Shown here: positions 23,372-36,621 of the stretch, piece after piece
Layout of the letters: every line of letters begins with the position of its first letter
Position numbering within the stretch: position 1 is the first letter of the stretch
DNA from: Styela clava
Taxonomy: Eukaryota; Chordata; Ascidiacea; Stolidobranchia; Styelidae
Reading direction: 5' to 3'
Assembly (NCBI RefSeq): GCF_964204865.1
Contig: NC_135255.1
Coordinates: 8,337,135-8,401,134, forward strand
Length of the DNA stretch: 64,000 bases
Notes under the pieces: model-generated
Told to the model about the DNA's origin: nothing
What the model saw: only the letters and a program-made list of their open reading frames with translations
Databases searched by the model: none
Translations under genes and position numbers: made by a program

Positions 23372-24919
23372 ATGGATGTGTTTGCATCTGCATACCCAGA
23401 TGCCTGTTCAAGCATTGGAGCAGCATCCAGGGCAGGAAACTCTCAAGTTTTGCATGAACTTTTGATGAAGGGGTTGGATTACACGATCAAAGATAACAGG
23501 GGATGGTATCCTATGCATGAAGCAGCATTTGGCGGTCATATCGAGTGTGTTAAAATACTTTTGGAAACGGCAATGTCAGATTGCGAATCTACCAGAGAGA
23601 TTTTGGATTGTGTATTCCCACCTGCTTTTGATGGAGAAACACCGTTATCTATTGCTTCTAGTGAAGGCCATGTTGAAGTTGTTAAACATCTCATGAGCTT
23701 GTACAAAGAATCGGAATTGGGAATTGACAAAATGGGATATCCTCTCCATGAATCCTGCAAAAATGGGCATAATAAATGTATTGAAATTCTAGTTGATGAA
23801 TTCCCAATGCATGTTAACATGAAGGATTCCCGAAGTGGTGATTATCCAATACATGTAATTGTTGAAAAAGAAAATATTCAAGCAACAAAATTTTTAATAC
23901 AAAATGGGGCTGATGTAAATGTGCAAGATTCAGATGACTTGAAGACACCATTACATGTGGCAGTTTCTATTGAAAATGAAGAGATTGTGAAACTTTTGAT
24001 CAATGAAGTTAAGGATGTGAATGCAACTGATATCACAGATTGTACGCCCTTATATTTAGCTGCGCAAAATGGAAATGAAAATATAGTACGGTTGCTGTTA
24101 AACAAAGGTGCTGATCCATTAAAGTGCATGTATATTGATCATATGGGCTTAAAAAGTTTTCCATTAACAGTAGCAGCTGAAAAAGGACATTTTCCCGTTG
24201 TTAAATTGCTTGCAAAAATTACTCCGAAAGATTGTTGTATTTCTGCAGTTATTTTGAGTGCTTTTAATAGGCACAATGATTGTTTATTATATTTATTCAG
24301 AAAAGGATATTCAACTTTCCATTCGGATATTAAAATTGCAGGTGAAAGCGTATGGGATATTTTATTAGGCCACAACAATGGTTTTGAAAGTTTCTCAAGT
24401 ACTGTTAAAATACTTATTGAAAATGATACTTTATTTTCGGATCTTGCGAGAAGGGAAGAACATTTGTATTTTAAATATTTTATTTTGCCCATGAGATTTA
24501 ATGACGTTAATATTGTGGTCCTAAATGAGTTTTTGAATGCAGGACTACTGGAATTACGATTCAACTGTGAAACATTTCCTAACTTATCATATTCAATCAG
24601 CGGACATAAAGTTTTACAAGATCGCTTAATCCTAAATAGTCGGTATCCGCATTATCTGAGAAATCTATCCAAAATATCACTTTGTTTGAGATATTTTCCA
24701 TTTTTATCGATTTCACATAATAGTTCATTGCCATTGGTGGTTGCAAATGTTGATGATCTTCTGCATGGAATTCTAGTTCAAAATGTTCCATCCTTGGTTG
24801 ATTTAACCAGATGGGTGATACGCTGCTATATAATTAAAGTCAAAGGCCTCATTTGTTCCAAACATATTACCTGCTTAAATTTACCAAGAAAATTGGAAGA
24901 TTTCCTGTTGCAATGTTAA
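23372..24919 (+). CDS. ASB3: Ankyrin repeat and SOCS box protein, ASB3-like
   Basis: Uninterrupted ORF of 515 residues (human ASB3 518). The start MDVFASAYPDACSSIGAASR aligns with the ASB3 N-terminus, which fixes the ATG. About ten ankyrin repeats follow, e.g. NRGWYPMHEAAFGGHIECVK, GETPLSIASSEGHVEVVK, LKTPLHVAVSIENEEIVK and CTPLYLAAQNGNENIVRLLL. The last 45 residues form a SOCS box: VPSLVDLTRWVIRCYI (BC box, binding elongin B/C) and LNLPRKLEDFLL (Cul5 box). ASB proteins are substrate receptors of Cullin-5 ubiquitin ligases. The substrate of this one cannot be read from the sequence. A possible 3' splice site at 23350 lies 20 bases before the ATG, suggesting a non-coding first exon or trans-splicing. 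Confidence 0.92.
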   Translation: MDVFASAYPDACSSIGAASRAGNSQVLHELLMKGLDYTIKDNRGWYPMHEAAFGGHIECVKILLETAMSDCESTREILDCVFPPAFDGETPLSIASSEGHVEVVKHLMSLYKESELGIDKMGYPLHESCKNGHNKCIEILVDEFPMHVNMKDSRSGDYPIHVIVEKENIQATKFLIQNGADVNVQDSDDLKTPLHVAVSIENEEIVKLLINEVKDVNATDITDCTPLYLAAQNGNENIVRLLLNKGADPLKCMYIDHMGLKSFPLTVAAEKGHFPVVKLLAKITPKDCCISAVILSAFNRHNDCLLYLFRKGYSTFHSDIKIAGESVWDILLGHNNGFESFSSTVKILIENDTLFSDLARREEHLYFKYFILPMRFNDVNIVVLNEFLNAGLLELRFNCETFPNLSYSISGHKVLQDRLILNSRYPHYLRNLSKISLCLRYFPFLSISHNSSLPLVVANVDDLLHGILVQNVPSLVDLTRWVIRCYIIKVKGLICSKHITCLNLPRKLEDFLLQC

Positions 24920-26984: not shown

Positions 26985-29900
26985 ATGCATGAACCAACAA
27001 TGGGTGGAAAACAGAAAATGCCCAAAGTGGCCAAGGTAACATATTTTTTAATCAAAGGAAACGGCATAGCTTGGTTTGAAGTTGCTTATATTATTGACTG
27101 GTTGTTCAGAGCCTTGTTATGCAGGGTTTAAAACATGTCATAAAAATATTAGTTAACAAGTGTTTATTTTTAAAATTTGTGTGTATTTTTCGTTTTCGAC
27201 CATAAAATTATCCAATGATTAATTTGTATTATGTTTTATGGCTGAGCTGAAGAGAATTTATGAATCCGAGTTGTCTATAAAAGTCACATTTTTTTAATAT
27301 GTGCAGTTTTCATAACCTATAAATTCATGGCTATTTTATGTATACCCATTATTCGATCTCAGGTGAAGAACAAAGCTCCAGCTCCTGTGCAAATCACTGC
27401 TGAACAACTTCTTCGAGAAGCAAAAGAAAGGGAATTAGAGAATGTTGCTCCTGTAAGTTTAAAACCCAAATTTGTGAAATTTTGTTATCTGATTTTCATT
27501 ATTGGACTTGAAATATACATATGGATTGTTTGACAAATTGGTTTTGTTAAAATATTGCTTTTGGCAATGGATTTCAAATTTTCAATACTTAAAATATGGA
27601 AGAAGTCGTTAGAGGCAATTACGGTACTTCAGTCCGATGGTCCGATAGTTCACCTTAAATCAGGCCTGGGCAAGTTGCAGCACTTTGAGCTGTGTGCTAA
27701 CACAGCAGGATATCGTTAGGATAGTCGACTCTGCGCTACCCAGTGTGCCATTGAACCTGATATTAAAGGAATTGTTGAAGCGCTACAGGGAAAACACTCT
27801 TCTAATTAAAAGTAACATTTGTATTATTTGAATGTGTAATAAAATTTGAAATTGCAATATGGCTCCATGGCAAAAATAATTGTTCAACCCTGCCTGAATT
27901 AAACGCTGCTGATTTCTTTTATTCCATCGGAACACTATATATTATATGGGAACGCAATCGCATGCCCTCTGACATTTGTGTCTATCACTGTCTATATAAC
28001 GAACCTTTCTTTCTTATTTAAATATGATTTACATTTTAGCCTCCAAGACAGAAGATCTCAGATCCAGATGAACTTGATGAATATAAACTCAGAAGAAGAA
28101 AAGTATAATCTCTTCAAATTGTCTGTTTATACAGAAGTGTCTTGGGATATTTAAATTAATTTTTGTATAATTTCAGGCTTTTGAAGATAATTTACGAAAG
28201 AACAGAGCCCACATATCCACATGGATGAAGTACGCTGCATTCGAGGATAACATGAAAGAAATCCAGAGGTATTTGTCTTCCTTTAGAGCAGGGGTTCCCA
28301 AACCAGGGGTCGCGACCCCAAATTGGGTCGGAGTGATAAATAGGTAGGGTCGCAACTAGGTACAACTCATCTAAGATTTGACAAACCATGTTAAATTTAG
28401 CAGTTTGTATCATGGCTCAATGTAAAACAGGCACATAGGCATCACTCTATGCTTTTGTTATTGAAAATGTAGGTGTTTATTGTGACATCACTGTTGGGTT
28501 TCAGCTTATTTTCCTTAATACCACCACATGACCAAACTCAAAAGTCCAGTGAAAGAAGCTCTAAAGTTTCATGAAAAATATATATATATTGACCTGGGGT
28601 CGCACTGGACACTTGAAAGTTGTCTTTGGGGTCGTCCTGAAAAAAAGGTTGGGAACCCCTGCTTTGGAGGATTTTTTCTTGTTGCAGAAGCCCCCATTTA
28701 TGTAAAAAGTATGGATTTTAAAGCAATGAAAATATCCTATATCTCGATATCTGTGTTCCTCAATCATCAATATAATTTTGATTGGCGCTCGAGTGAAAAC
28801 TCATAACAAATACTGTAAGATGTATGATCAAACTATTCGAAGCAGTTTTTTCAAGATTCATAAGTTTATAACTTGTTCTAGTTACCTCCCATGATATTTG
28901 TTTTCTCAGGTATGTGCACTTCGCAAGTTGCCGAATTGAATAAATGATCACTCCTATATTATTGATTACTTTATTTTCTGTTCTTTTCAGGACAGCTTCA
29001 ATATACAATATAATATTTTCTTTAAATCACTCTTATTTTTCAGAGCAAGATCAGTGTACGAACGAGCTCTGGATGTTGAATATCGAAATCTTACACTATG
29101 GTACAAATATGCAGAAATGGAAATGAAAAACAAACAAATAAATCATGCAAGAAACGTTTGGGATAGAGCAGTCACTATTCTACCAAGAGCAAATCAATTA
29201 TGGTATGTGTGCGTGGCAATCTAAGTTTTTTGATCAGGGAGAAAAAAGAATGTTGCAGTCTTTGGTGAATTTCGTATCTGATATTCTGGCGTGTTTGGCG
29301 TGTTTATTAACACCTATGCTCAAGTATGGTTTTAAGCAAGCATTTATTGAAAAACACGAGGCTTCTGTGTCAGTGGAAAGAAAAAATTGTCTTTGTGGGT
29401 TGGAGTTTGAACTGCAGTTTTTTTACAGATTATCAACTTAAGTAGGCTATCTACTTCTTCTAATTCTAAATGGAATTAACAAATGGAGCAAAACAAGTTC
29501 AAACTAATTTAGGTCTAACTGTCAGAACAAAAATCTTAATATAACCAAATACACAAATCAATTAAATGATTGATATACACCCAGATGACCAAAAATACCA
29601 TTGTTGCCTTCTGCAATTAACTGTCGTGGCGATGAAATGTGATGTTGAGATCACTCTACTTTGCAAATATAATTCAGTTTGTAAGCCGTCTCTCTTAATT
29701 GAATATTAATTTTTTATTAGATCATGTGATAATATTTTTCAGGTACAAATATACATACATGGAAGAAATGCTTGGCAATATTCCAGCTTGTCGACAGGTT
29801 TTTGAGAGATGGATGGAATGGGAACCACATGAACAGGTTTAAATTGGTTGAATTATTTTTTAATAATGAAAAAAATGGTAGCGAATTAAAATGGTGAAAG

Positions 29901-32900
29901 ACTTTCAAGATTGAGAATAAGAGAAATGTGCATCAAGATAAGTTTTTATCCAAATTTTATAAAATTTATTTCATGTTTAAAATCAATTGTTAACTATTTT
30001 GGCATCGTAACATAGCTCAAAAATTTTTGGTTCCATGTCTACCACCTAACATGGGATGTATTAAATTGAGTAGACAATGCCAAAATAGAGATGGATTTTG
30101 GTCTTCTCAAAATATAATAGTTTCTTACCTCACAGTGGCTCCTCATACAAAGCCTCGTTGAGGGGGAAATGTGTTTAAATTTTTATAAAAAAAAAATAGA
30201 AATGTGATGCTTCATGTACAAAAGTCTGGAAAATTCAGGAAATGTTTCATGATTTTAATATTAAATTGAAAATTACTGAATTAGGCTTTAAGAAATTTTG
30301 CGCAAATTTGATAAAATTTAGCTTCCTATTATTTAATTGTTATTTTTTGTATAACCTCAGGCTTGGCAATCCTACATCAACTTTGAATTACGATATAAGG
30401 AAGTTGACAGAGCAAGAACAATCCATGAAAGATATATCCTTTTGCAAGTCATTTTCCCAACCAAAGCACACAATTGCTTAATGAATGTCACAGCGTAGAA
30501 AATCACTGTGTACTGAGAAACTGATACATTGCTTTAATAACATTGCATTTTTCTCACAATACAAACAGTTTGATGAACATTTATTCAAACATACCAATCT
30601 TGATATTTAAAAACGCTAAGTAATAATAAATCACAATTTAGACAGATATATATTTAAGAATTTAAATTAACTTCACGGTGAAATGATTTCACCATATTTA
30701 GTGGATGACTGTTGACAGGATGGTCAAGTTGTTGAAGCTTTGTACCTGGCATTGTTGATGTCACTTACAGGTGATAAATACCGAATTTGAATTTTCCAAT
30801 TTTTCTATGCCTGGAAATGACCTTGACTGCTATGTTCACTTGTATATATTCATCCTCAAGTCAAGAACTGGATAAAATATGGAAAGTTTGAAGAAAAATT
30901 TGGATATATTACAAATTCAAGAAAGGTAAAATTTGAATAGGAGATTGGCCTAAATGGGCAATAGATTAGGGAAAAAGTGCTTTGGAATTTCATACATTCA
31001 TAATCATATGTTTATTACTTATATATAATGTTAGAATGGTATGAACTCGTTAACTCTTATTTTTGGGATAAATCGAAAATCTCATATTTACTATTTTATG
31101 TAAATAATTTGAAATAATAAAATTCTGATCTGCACTGTACCAGAGCATAATTTTAGGGAATTTTCCTAACTGCATCACTGACAGCAGTTAATATGAATGA
31201 CCTAAGTTTGCTGTCTTTAAGAATATACCAACATGCAAATTTTTGTTATACAAAGACAAAATTCATTAATTTACCACTTTGTGATATATTCATTGAGTTT
31301 GTATTGGAATATTTTTTCAAGATATTCGAAAGAGCCGTCGAATTTTTCGGGGAAGATTATATGGAAGAAAATCTTTTTATTTCGTTTGCGAAATTCGAAG
31401 AACGACAAAAAGAGGTTGGATGTTTAATAATTCTGTAATATCAAGTTGGTCTCAATACCAGGTTTTAATGATGGCAAGAGACCAATACTTAAATGGACAC
31501 TAAGGTCAAAGTTCATATAAAATGTTCCCACAAATTAGAGGAGCAAAATGTGGAGTGAAATATCGCGTTCAATAATACAATCAACCCCCAAGAAAAACAA
31601 TTTAGCAAAATGTATGCTTCACGTCAAATAATGATCAGCATTTATATTGATTATTTATTACTCTGTAAATATGGGTGAGGTCTAACTAAGGGTGGTTTTG
31701 AAGGTAATATTATAAAGGGGACAAAGATACTGTCATGTAAAGTTTTTCTGAATTACACGACCAATGCTTTTAAAGTAATTTTTAATTTTTTTTTAACTCA
31801 TAATTAGCTAACGCAGAGAATTCTATCCACATTGTGTGGCTTTTTTATCATGACTATTTCTTGCTTTTTAGTTTGAGAGGGCGAGAGTAATCTACAAATA
31901 TGCACTCGATCATATTGATAAAAAGGACGCAGGAGAATTATTCAAAGCATATACAATATTTGAAAAGAAATTTGGAAATAGATCAGGCATCGAAAATGTT
32001 ATTGTCAGTAAAAGAAAATTTCAGTATGAAGAAGAAGTAAAGGTTTGCTGGAAGATATATATATGATTTTCATGTGACATTCTTAAGTATTTACTCGACA
32101 TAAACGACTATTCACCTGATATAAGGAAGAATATTTTATTGAAGGGATCTTGATTATCTATTATATTAAATTATCTTGGTCGCTCCTTTTTATGATATGC
32201 CTATTTAGTTGAGATTTTGCTGTTGAAAATTTAAAATTAAATGGTCAATGTGACCCAGTTCTCATTATATTAAATAACTGGTTGAAATACAAATTTGATA
32301 ATTTTAGAAACTGTTTTACATTGTTTTTGCATTGACTTTGCATCTTCCCCTGGCCTCTCATAGTTAATTATGACCCACATATTTTAAAATTTGCAAATTT
32401 ATTGGAATAAACTTTTTTATCACATTATTTTCTGTTTTTCAACGAATGAATACTAAATTTGATTGACAGGAAAATCCACATAATTACGATGCCTGGTTTG
32501 ATTATCTTCGTCTCTCCGAGGAAGAGGGTGACCCAGAGAAGACTCGTGAAGTTTATGAACGAGCTATTTCTAATATTCCACCTGTGGCTGAGAAAAGACA
32601 TTGGAGAAGATATATTTATTTATGGATAAATTATGCACTATATGAAGAACTTATAACCAAGGTCCGAGAAATGAAAATATAGTGCTATGAAGATATCTCT
32701 TTGTTTCCGTAGTTTTAATTTTCACAAAACTAATTCTCTTGTTATTTGCATAATTGCAATTACAGTTGGGGCAAGATAATCTGTGAAAGTCCTACTGCTA
32801 ATCTGATGTTGCGTCTTTCCTCTCACTAGGAACGCAATATATACAGGGTGTCCCAAAATAAATGAAATCCACTCGTATTTCCTGATTCATTCCAATTTTA

Positions 32901-35900
32901 TTAGGAAGGCACATAATCGTCCCAAATTCTAGGTGGCTTTAGTCTGCATTTTGAAAATTCTGTAATTGCTTACCAGGAGGACATTTAAATTATGGAAGTT
33001 TTCTTTATAGAAGTGTAATGGGTTTCATTTATTTTGGGACACCCTGTATATGTATGTTCTTAGAAGACAAGGGGCTTATATAACAAATCTAGTTTTATGC
33101 TCAGAATATTACTTTCATTGTCTTTTTGTAACCATGAAACTCTCTACTATGATAACAAAAACATTGGCATATGCAACCTTCTTTTAATAGACTGTCAAGA
33201 ACGCTTGGTAAACTTAATAGCTTCTTGAGTTTCTGACGAAAATTTAACTGAACTTATGAAATTCAGGCTTCTGATTCCAGAAATTTCAAAGTTTTCACCT
33301 CGACTCTCGACTATGCAGTTTAAAAATTAAACTACAGATCTGTTCAGCACTATGATTAAAAGTAATAATGTGAGAGCCCATTTGGAAATATTCTCTCCCT
33401 TGGTAGCATATGTTTCTCCTGTGAATATGCATGTGAAAATCCCTCGCCAAACCAGATGTCTGTCTCTTATGCTCTTCAAATATTTACTCATCCGCCCAGA
33501 AGGTGGAATCGAACCACTCCGACGCTAATCGGCTACAGGTTTGAAGCCTGCACCCCAGACCACTGAGGATCATCCGGGCATAGGACAACAGGTTCAGTGC
33601 TGTTCATATATGGGTGCATTCAAACAATGCTACCATTTATGGTAGCTAGCTAAATGCGATCAATTACTCTTGAAAGTCAGCTGTGCAATCGCAACATGTT
33701 TACAATACACATGCAGCTGGTGATATTATATTATTAAAGCTTTTATCCAAGGACAAAATCAGAAGACAGACCTTTTTCATATTTCACGTTGAAATTCATT
33801 TCTTTAACCCAAATATCCCTAAATTCAGGATTCCGAAAGAACGCGAGAAGTTTACAAAGCTTGTTTAGAAGTGATACCACATAAGAAATTCACATTTGCA
33901 AAAGTATGGTTGATGTTTGCTCATTTTGAAATAAGACAAAGGGACTTGAAACAAGCAAGAAAAATATTGGTATGTTGGGTTTGTTTACATAGTCTTGTTA
34001 CTGCAAATAAATAATGTACTTCAAATGTAAATACACCAGCTAAGAGCGAAAATTTCTCAGTCTAAAATATGTTACAACTAGAATGTAAAGTTGTTAAAAA
34101 TGTATTGCACTCTTTAACAACCCCAAGCTGTAGCAAGTTCAAAAACACAAAAGTATTGCTATATATCTCAATATTGATTAAGATTTGCCATATAAATCTG
34201 AAAAATGCTGTCAAAAATTCTTCTATGGAATTAGACGAAATTTTATACATTTATTTCTATTTTAAGTAGGCATTTTACTCTGAATGTGGCTCTGCACGAG
34301 CCACCACAAATATTTATTACGAGGGCTAAGCCAATATAAACTACCGGTATTTTAAATTTATTTGTGTTTTTTGTCCACATGTAACACATTCTATTTATCT
34401 AGGGAGTTTCAATTGGTAAATGCCCGAAAGATCGCCTGTTCCGCGGTTACATTGAACTAGAACTTCAACTTCGAGAATTTGATCGTTGTCGAGTTTTATA
34501 TGAAAAATTTTTGGAACATGGCCCTGATAATTGCACAACATGGTGCCGGTTTGCGGAACTTGAAACATTACTTGGGGATGCGGATCGTGCGAGAGCTATA
34601 TACGAGATTGCTGTAAATCAACCTAGACTTGATATGCCTGAGGTTAGTATGTGAGAATAATTTAATGTTGGAACAAAAAATAGCTTTATCTTTAAATACA
34701 AGACTATTGCACCCAAATTTGAGTAGTTGAGGGTGGAATAAGCTCCTGTATTTTACAAATTTCTACTAAGTCACACGAGACCCAAATTTGCTGATTTTAA
34801 AAAGTTATGTCGTCACTTTATTCCACTCACTAATAAATTTTGTAAGCTTATTGGTAACAGTTTTTCGACATCTTATATTCCTTTATTGCTTTTGTATCAT
34901 CTTAAAATACTAGTTCCTGAAACAGCAATGTTGTAAAATTCAAACTTTAATTTTATCCAGTGCTCAATTTGTTAGACTTCAATGACCATTTTATAGGGCT
35001 ATAAATCTCTGTGTTGTGACACTCTATTTTTAGTTCAACATTCAATTGATCTTACTCTAAAGATAGGCACAATGTGCACTCTGGTTTTAGACAGTCTCAA
35101 ATTTTTCTCTCGTTTAGGTTTTATGGAAAGCTTATATTGATTTTGAAATGGAACAAGAGGAAAATGAAAATGCAAGGAAATTATACAGAAGGTTACTAGA
35201 CAGAACTCAACATGTGAAAGTTTGGATGAGTTTTGCTACTTTTGAATCTTCGAATGAGACAAAGGATGGTTTTGAACGAGCAAGGTTAGTATTATTTCAA
35301 ATTGAATTTGGCATAATCGTATGTTGTTTTTCTTCATTGTTAATTATCTCCACAAAAGGGATTTCGAGTATTGTAAATACTACTGTTTTAGTTGCCTGTC
35401 TACTGCCTGCAGGCTTCTATTTATTTTCATATCATTTTGACATATTTTTTTCAGACAAGTGTATAAAGAAGCACACAACACACTCAAAGACACACATGAA
35501 AAAGAAGAAAGAATGTTATTGTTGGAAGCTTGGAAGAAATTTGAAGTGAGAAAAATTTGATTAAAATAGGAACCTGTGTGTCCCCATTTCGATTACTCAT
35601 CAGCATAGTCATATTTCAAATTCCATACATATTCCAAATATTTGCGCAATGTGCCAACAACTATTTGAGAACAGATGGGATTTAGGAATGGGTTATCGAT
35701 AAGCTTTTTTGGAACTGGTACATAGTTTCTTTACCAAAATTTGGTTATAAATTTACTTTACTAATAGTCTCAACCTCTCTTTCCCATTTTATCTGATAAC
35801 GGATTGATATTTTCAGCTTGAAAATGGTGATGCTGAGACGATACGTCAAGTTGACAAACAAATGCCAAAGAGGATCAAGAAAAGACGAAAAGTCACAACT

Positions 35901-36621
35901 GAATCAGGGGTAACAATATATTATCACACAACTCATCGAATTAATAATAGCGATATACAGATAATTAAATCACTGATATTTTTAAAACCACTGTTCTGAA
36001 TTATTCTTTTGCCTATTCATCTCAATTACCTCTGTTTCTCCTGTGTTATATATTTTTTTCAGTGAAAAGTCTGTTTAAGCTAGAATTTAAATTTGAAAAT
36101 CTAACGACCTTTTGACATGACAGTAATAAATGATATGCATGCCTTTAAATTGAATTATTCTTGTATATAACTGAGATTGATTTGTTATTTTACTGTAGTT
36201 GTGATAAATTGATTAGAAAATATTTGGTAGCACTTGCCCCGATTTATTACAACAGTTTTGCTGATCCAGTTGTATTTCATTGAATTTTCGTATTAAATCG
36301 TACTCGTTTAATTCTCAGGTTGATGCAGGATGGGAGGAATATTATGATTACATATTCCCAGAAGATGAAGCAGCTCAACCTAATCTTAAACTACTTGCGA
36401 TGGCTAAACAATGGAAGATGAAACAGGAGGATGAGAGTGACAATGAAAGTGATGGTGACAGTGTATCAGAAGACAATGAAAGTGAAGAAGATTCTGAAGA
36501 AGGGACAAGTCAATCATTACAAATAAAACCAGAACCTACAAGCCAAAAATCTGAGTCAAGTGATGATGAAGGAAAAATAAAAAAGGAACTGGTTTCTGGT
36601 GATGATCCTGACTCAACCTGA
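26985..36621 (+). CDS. CRNKL1: Crooked neck-like pre-mRNA splicing factor, 17 exons
   Basis: Exons: 26985-27035, 27363-27452, 28040-28102, 28177-28268, 29044-29202, 29743-29836, 30361-30433, 30840-30925, 31322-31414, 31872-32042, 32470-32661, 33829-33969, 34403-34642, 35118-35284, 35455-35545, 35817-35909, 36319-36621. All phases agree and give 732 residues. The N-terminus [20 protein letters not shown] and [14 protein letters not shown] match human CRNKL1. An array of HAT (half-a-TPR) repeats follows, e.g. [52 protein letters not shown] and [39 protein letters not shown] precedes an acidic, serine-rich tail. It is a scaffold of the Prp19-associated spliceosome core (Syf3/Clf1). Intron 7 is a U12-type AT-AC intron. 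A tRNA-Sec gene lies antisense in intron 11. Confidence 0.95.
27661..27896. mobile_element. Probable degenerate hAT-like MITE in CRNKL1 intron 2
   Basis: CAGGCCTGGGCAAGTTGCAG at the left and AACAATTGT-like sequence ending CAACCCTGCCTG at the right are roughly inverted (CAGGC..GG). The flanks CCTTAAAT and AATTAAAC do not form a clean duplication. Confidence 0.35.
28289..28661. mobile_element. hAT MITE, family 2, in CRNKL1 intron 4 (373 bp)
   Basis: The ends are CAGGGGTTCCCAAACC and the inverse GGTTGGGAACCCCTG. The flanking 8-mers CTTTAGAG (28281-28288) and CTTTGGAG (28662-28669) differ at one base, giving an 8-bp target duplication typical of hAT. It inserted just 20 bases downstream of the exon 4 donor. 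There is no ORF of its own. Confidence 0.85.
30012..30180 (+). repeat. Degraded tRNA-type SINE, family 2, in CRNKL1 intron 6
   Basis: TTGGTTCCATGTCTACCACC, GATGTATTAAATTGAGTAGA, TGGTCTTCTCAAAATATAAT and a CTCCTCATACAAAGCCTC-like tail follow the order of the copy at 46955-47110. The B-box-like TTGGTTCCAT is degraded. Confidence 0.45.
30434..30839 (+). other. U12-type AT-AC intron of CRNKL1
   Basis: The intron begins ATATCCTTTT (30434), the U12 AT-AC donor consensus. It ends in AC (30838-30839). A U12-like branch site CCTTGACT at 30821-30828 lies about 12 bases before the end. No AG acceptor gives a continuous protein here. The AT-AC junction restores [13 protein letters not shown], which matches the family sequence ERFVLVHPDVKNW across the splice. 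Confidence 0.92.
32844..33046. mobile_element. TA-flanked MITE in CRNKL1 intron 11 (about 203 bp)
   Basis: The left end CAGGGTGTCCCAAAATAAAT and its inverse at the right form perfect inverted repeats of 24 bases (through GAAA). TATA flanks both ends, which fits the TA duplication of Tc1/mariner-type elements. There is no ORF, so it is non-autonomous. Confidence 0.85.
33493..33579 (-). tRNA. tRNA-Sec (selenocysteine), anticodon TCA
   Basis: The minus strand reads GCCCGGATGATCCTCAGTGG at its 5' end, as in vertebrate tRNA-Sec, and ends CTTCTGGGC with discriminator G; total 87 bases. Visible parts are a long acceptor stem, a D stem CCTCA/TGGGG, an anticodon stem GCAGG/CCTGT with loop CTTCAAA (anticodon TCA, 33542-33544), and a long variable arm CCGA/TCGG with loop TTAGCG. 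The T arm is GTGG-TTCGATT-CCAC. The variable stem differs from the human CTGT/ACAG by paired changes, which is good evidence for selection on structure. A TATA-like ATATAT lies about 30 bases upstream (33606-33612), as in known tRNA-Sec genes. It lies antisense in CRNKL1 intron 11. Confidence 0.95.
33604..33614 (-). promoter_or_regulatory. TATA-like element of the tRNA-Sec gene
   Basis: CATATATG lies about 27-33 bases upstream of the tRNA-Sec 5' end on the minus strand. Animal tRNA-Sec genes are transcribed from an upstream TATA plus PSE promoter rather than a normal internal A box. I did not identify the PSE. Confidence 0.5.

Follow-up and report, generated by a model that had tools for sequence, protein, structure and literature searches.

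An intron very probably of the U12-type AT-AC class in CRNKL1, a splicing gene of Styela clava

Minor introns are over-represented in genes for RNA processing and other kinds of information processing, and pre-mRNA splicing is the function of 11 of the 63 minor-intron genes in the human "majority essentialome" (PMC6865273). The zebrafish rnpc3 mutants gave rise to a model in which the loss of minor splicing destabilises mRNA processing generally (PMC6865273). In Drosophila, the 19 U12-intron genes given in Table 1 of PMC2952598 include SF3A1 (CG16941) and ZRSR2 and no CRNKL1 orthologue, and fly ovaries that lack Miso retain minor introns and contain less Sf3a1 protein (PMC12084885). The word CRNKL1 is absent from the main text of PMC6865273, in which the names of the 11 genes are left to the supplement. 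Paper searches on CRNKL1 or crooked neck together with minor or U12 introns or the minor spliceosome, which covered neither database catalogues nor supplements, turned up no minor intron in CRNKL1 among the papers listed, which may hint that such an intron is unreported.

The CRNKL1 gene of Styela clava compares closely with these systems. Its intron 7 shares with U12-type AT-AC introns the 5' splice site, branch site, spacing, termini and genome-encoded minor snRNAs, and the gene resembles other U12-type intron genes in having a single minor intron beside many major introns; what differs from the known U12-type AT-AC introns is the host gene. The human essential set likewise includes splicing genes that carry minor introns, and Drosophila SF3A1 is also a splicing-factor gene with a minor intron, but the factor is a different one.

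The window, that is, the whole stretch of 64,000 nucleotides analysed, corresponds to C6:8337135-8401134 in an assembly of 376.6 Mb and 379 contigs, which gave no match to COX1 (PF00115). Its + strand holds a complete CRNKL1 (crooked neck/Clf1/Syf3) gene of 17 exons and 732 codons, laid out as follows in window coordinates.

26985..36621, + strand: CRNKL1 coding region, 17 exons, 732 aa, with Pfam Syf1/CRNKL1 HAT domains and an alignment to human CRNKL1
26985-27035, 27363-27452, 28040-28102, 28177-28268, 29044-29202, 29743-29836, + strand: CRNKL1 exons 1-6
30361-30433, 30840-30925, 31322-31414, 31872-32042, 32470-32661, 33829-33969, + strand: CRNKL1 exons 7-12
34403-34642, 35118-35284, 35455-35545, 35817-35909, 36319-36621, + strand: CRNKL1 exons 13-17
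30361..30433, + strand: CRNKL1 exon 7, ending with the first base of the F208 codon
30840..30925, + strand: CRNKL1 exon 8, opening with the last two F208 bases

The predicted protein aligned with human CRNKL1 (8c6j_S) without a gap, residues 4-686 to residues 4-686, at 1140.8 bits, and matched the Pfam families PF23233 and PF23231 (Syf1/CRNKL1 HAT domains). Residues 196-227, which span the exon 7/8 junction, form a complete HAT repeat (PF02184, 1-32/32). By these comparisons the gene is predicted to encode a full-length HAT-repeat protein, the orthologue of human CRNKL1; the gapless alignment and the HAT domains agree with the name that an earlier note on this DNA had given the gene. In a genome search with CRNKL1, 16 of 19 matches (counts that are lower bounds) fell at the window locus, the other three being 23-28% identical, and a single CRNKL1 copy was found. 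Fifteen of the 16 introns of the gene are GT-AG, and intron 7 alone is AT-AC.

30434..30839, + strand: CRNKL1 intron 7, predicted U12-type AT-AC, 406 nt, phase 1
30434..30443, + strand: minor-class 5' splice site ATATCCTTTT, which fits [AG]TATCCTT
30821..30827, + strand: minor-class branch site CCTTGAC, branch A at 30826
30838..30839, + strand: AC terminus of intron 7

Minor introns have AT-AC or GT-AG termini. The consensus of minor branch sites resembles TCCTTRAC, and the branch region of intron 7, ACCTTGAC, fits it at seven of eight positions, the mismatch being the first base (no T precedes CCTTGAC). The 3' end of the intron reads ACCTTGACTGCTATGTTCAC, with 13 nt from the branch A at 30826 to the last intron base; judged by eye, a polypyrimidine tract is absent between branch site and 3' end, and upstream of the branch site there is a short T run. 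For U12-type introns, 11-13 nt has been described as the optimal spacing of branch site and intron end, and a distinct polypyrimidine tract as lacking (PMC3584512). Intron 7 is also the sole phase 1 intron among the 16 of CRNKL1, which is in line with the published U12 bias against phase 0 (PMC7367187). The coordinates of the intron and the junction 30433/30840 given in the earlier note proved exact, and its view that the donor, the branch-like site and the AC end fit the minor spliceosome was confirmed by ATATCCTTTT, by CCTTGAC at 13 nt and by the AC terminus. A repeat origin of intron 7 was considered and found unsupported: in a genome search that skips very common words, its DNA matched itself alone, and at the settings used no internal repeats were detected.

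The reading frame bears directly on the choice of splice sites, through two stop codons.

30824..30826, + strand: TGA closing the HPQ frame upstream, with no AG from 30827 to HPQ
30496..30498, + strand: TAG read in frame when intron 7 is kept, which would cut the protein short after residue 228 of 732

Because of this TGA and because no AG lies between it and HPQ, no AG acceptor can retain FVYIHPQ, whatever the donor. We scored 3813 open joins (donors up to 30599, any termini) by summed BLOSUM62 against four orthologues (human, 8ro0, 8xi2 and 9esh), and the results revealed that the AT-AC join 30434/30839 scored highest, at 721, against 616 for the best of seven GC-AG joins and 605 for the best of six GT-AG joins. 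The claim of the earlier note that this junction alone restores the conserved segment stands among joins with known splice termini. Joins slid by a few bases from the AT-AC pair came close to its score, at 719 to 709, but their termini, such as TT-AT and TC-TG, are not those of splice sites. A narrower scan comprised the 17 joins that have GT-AG, GC-AG or AT-AC/AT-AG ends, preserve KNW and leave no less than 30 nt of exon 7 before the donor. Rescue of the exon 7/8 junction by a GT-AG or GC-AG pair was rejected, the HP block being kept by no AG acceptor. An in-frame GT-AG pair at 30448-30865 (+ strand), offset from the AT-AC intron, would change FVYIHPQVK to YILLQ and is a possible cryptic product of the major spliceosome if minor splicing fails.

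The motifs by themselves carry less weight than their position. The donor ATATCCTTTT was found twice in the window, at 30434 (+) and at 24310 (-), and the arrangement of [AG]TATCCTT, CCTT[AG]AC and a matched terminus, sought on both strands up to a limit of 3000 nt, occurred once, at intron 7. In simulated 64-kb strands with the dinucleotide content of the window, the arrangement appeared 0.06 times per strand (100 runs) and 0.05 times (200 runs) within 1000 nt, and 0.21 times per strand within 3000 nt. The motif set alone is thus uncommon, not impossible, and not decisive; chance is removed because the motifs coincide exactly with the junction that the protein requires.

A genome search for U11, U12, U4atac and U6atac, which the earlier note had proposed as a check, returned all four over the Rfam cut-offs: at least one match each for U11, U4atac and U6atac, and two copies of U12 with a further one below the cut-off, the 14 control genomes being silent in each search. 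Positions +4 to +11 of intron 7 are complementary to the 5' end of the genome's U11 over eight consecutive pairs, one of them G-U; positions +4 to +10 are complementary to AAAAGGA of U6atac over seven pairs; and CCTTGAC is complementary to GTAAGG of U12 with the A bulged and one G-U pair, each pairing lying in its expected register. Free duplex energy (U11, U6atac and U12) was discarded as a test of intron class, as it does not discriminate from random sequence. Thirteen percent of 5000 random 21-mers from the window are no worse at pairing with U11 than the intron 7 donor, 44% of random window 20-mers are no worse against U12 than its branch region, and the end regions of 7 of the 15 other CRNKL1 introns do better against U12 than that of intron 7. 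Within the pairing evidence it is the in-register complementarity that would count as telling, and we rely on that only.

At 52-63 nt upstream, all six snRNA loci carry a PSE-like element that differs from CCACAAATGGTAGCATA by 0 to 3 mismatches, against 4 to 7 for the best match elsewhere in these loci, which suggests snRNA-type promoters. The third U12-like copy (L003, 1501-1637) scored 44.5 bits, under the Rfam cut-off; in its branch-pairing stretch it has GTAAAAAAAATAA in comparison with GTAAGGAAAATAA, its PSE-like element remains with 3 mismatches, and it looks like a decayed copy. A similar element was observed within CRNKL1 itself, where a selenocysteine tRNA gene (33494-33579, - strand) lies antisense in intron 11 (32662-33828). 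This tRNA gene has a PSE-like element at 33626-33642, with 2 mismatches to that of the snRNA genes, and a TATA-like TATATG at 33605-33610, and the spacings of its promoter resemble those of the U6atac gene.

Among the minor-specific proteins, PDCD7, also called U11-59K, was found over the Pfam cut-off in the genome, and the matching piece matches PDCD7 alone in Pfam. CENATAC and SCNM1 gave no match in a six-frame profile search conducted exon by exon, in which the controls were likewise silent, so that the absence of either protein does not follow. CENATAC promotes the splicing of AT-AN minor introns (PMC8280824). The zf-U11-48K profile (PF05253) yielded five matches in the genome and matched one control genome too. 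Judged by eye from the frames, these matches belong to two GTSF1-like genes and a single TRMT13-like gene, and they were dropped as evidence of U11-48K. The two GTSF1-like genes (L004 and L006, on C2 and C10) have paired CHHC zinc fingers, as recognised by eye.

The sequence hallmarks, a frame that excludes AG acceptors, the four minor snRNAs and PDCD7 together argue for the U12-type AT-AC class that the earlier note had assigned. We consider it very probable that intron 7 is a genuine intron of this class, to be removed by the minor spliceosome, in a normal CRNKL1 gene. The anatomy, the frame and the snRNA genes are seen in the DNA itself, and from them we infer how splicing would proceed. 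U11 and then U6atac would pair with ATATCCTTTT, U12 would pair at the branch site, CCTTGAC, and the 3' splice site would be the AC terminus that lies 13 nt further on. Correct removal would rebuild codon 208 and complete the HAT repeat, whereas translation into an unremoved intron would end after residue 228. The major spliceosome presumably removes the remaining 15 introns, all GT-AG. With one minor and 15 major introns, the CRNKL1 mRNA would need both machines, like the mRNAs of other minor-intron genes.

CRNKL1 is a member of the NTC and may also be used in minor complexes. Intron 7 might act as a regulatory gate, along the lines of the earlier note, in which slow minor splicing would set the CRNKL1 level and hence the capacity of the major spliceosome, and possibly that of both machines. 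Splicing rate and regulatory effect lie a step beyond what the DNA displays, and we regard such a gate as unlikely, although the idea is plausible and not novel in kind. Its plausibility derives from HeLa cells, in which CRNKL1 depletion leads to more intron retention (PMC12256911). The proposal that slow U12 splicing is rate-limiting (PMC3584512) and, at this locus, the finding of one CRNKL1 copy in the genome and the truncation predicted on intron 7 retention point the same way. The fly data fall on both sides, because Sf3a1 protein is reduced when minor splicing fails (PMC12084885), whereas none of seven SF3a1 probes changed in U6atac-mutant larvae (Table 1 of PMC2952598). The functional bias of minor-intron genes, moreover, was attributed largely to gene age in a survey of more than 3000 genomes (PMC10639083), which speaks against a gate. 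More doubtful still is the fuller version, in which the output of minor splicing would cap major splicing in this lineage via an unreported CRNKL1 intron and, should the minor spliceosome likewise use CRNKL1, would form a positive loop of self-dependence.

The possibility that the AT-AC intron is spliced by the major (U2-type) spliceosome arises because class is not defined by AT-AC termini alone, and U2-type AT-AC introns are indeed known in SCN4A (intron 21; PMC2831892), SYCP2 (intron 5) and TAF2 (intron 1; both PMC8280824). Such splicing is very improbable for intron 7, which has a full-length minor 5' splice site, a minor branch site, minor spacing and no polypyrimidine tract beside its 3' end, in a genome that has kept the minor snRNAs. 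Just as improbable is the use of a GT-AG or GC-AG pair by the major spliceosome, with the minor-class motifs there by coincidence. In its favour, the frame stays open in seven GC-AG joins and in six GT-AG joins, of which 30448-30865 is the best, and simulation yields the motif arrangement about 0.05-0.2 times per strand. Against it, every AG acceptor loses FVYIHPQ, the best such joins score below the AT-AC join, and the motif set sits exactly on the required junction.

With intron 7 read as a U12-type intron, Styela clava and the fly can be compared gene by gene. The SF3A1-like coding region of Styela clava (L022 616-2922, - strand, on C13), PRP21-like by Pfam, is one uninterrupted frame of 768 codons and so leaves no room for the fly U12-type intron. 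Its coding introns are gone, a processed copy being one possible route of loss. In the fly, SF3A1 has a minor intron and CRNKL1 is not listed; in Styela clava the reverse would hold, which suggests that the splicing genes that depend on minor splicing differ by lineage, at least for this pair. A pattern search for the intron 7 position in other animals, the collections being other than eukaryotic, returned 5 viral_contigs matches and 31 genome_contigs matches, none of them a relative.

This locus provides one well-supported gene structure and no new mechanism, minor introns in splicing genes being already known; the AT-AC intron in CRNKL1 is very probably real. De novo variants of CRNKL1 have been linked to severe microcephaly (PMC12256911), and this link, together with the intron retention in HeLa cells described in the same article, suggests that the supply of CRNKL1 could matter. 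If the position of the intron is shared with other animals, or if it is specific to the lineage, either outcome would bear on whether the minor introns of splicing genes are regulatory or are leftovers of gene age. In the lineage of Styela clava, as judged from the DNA, CRNKL1 would join the splicing genes whose expression passes through the minor spliceosome.
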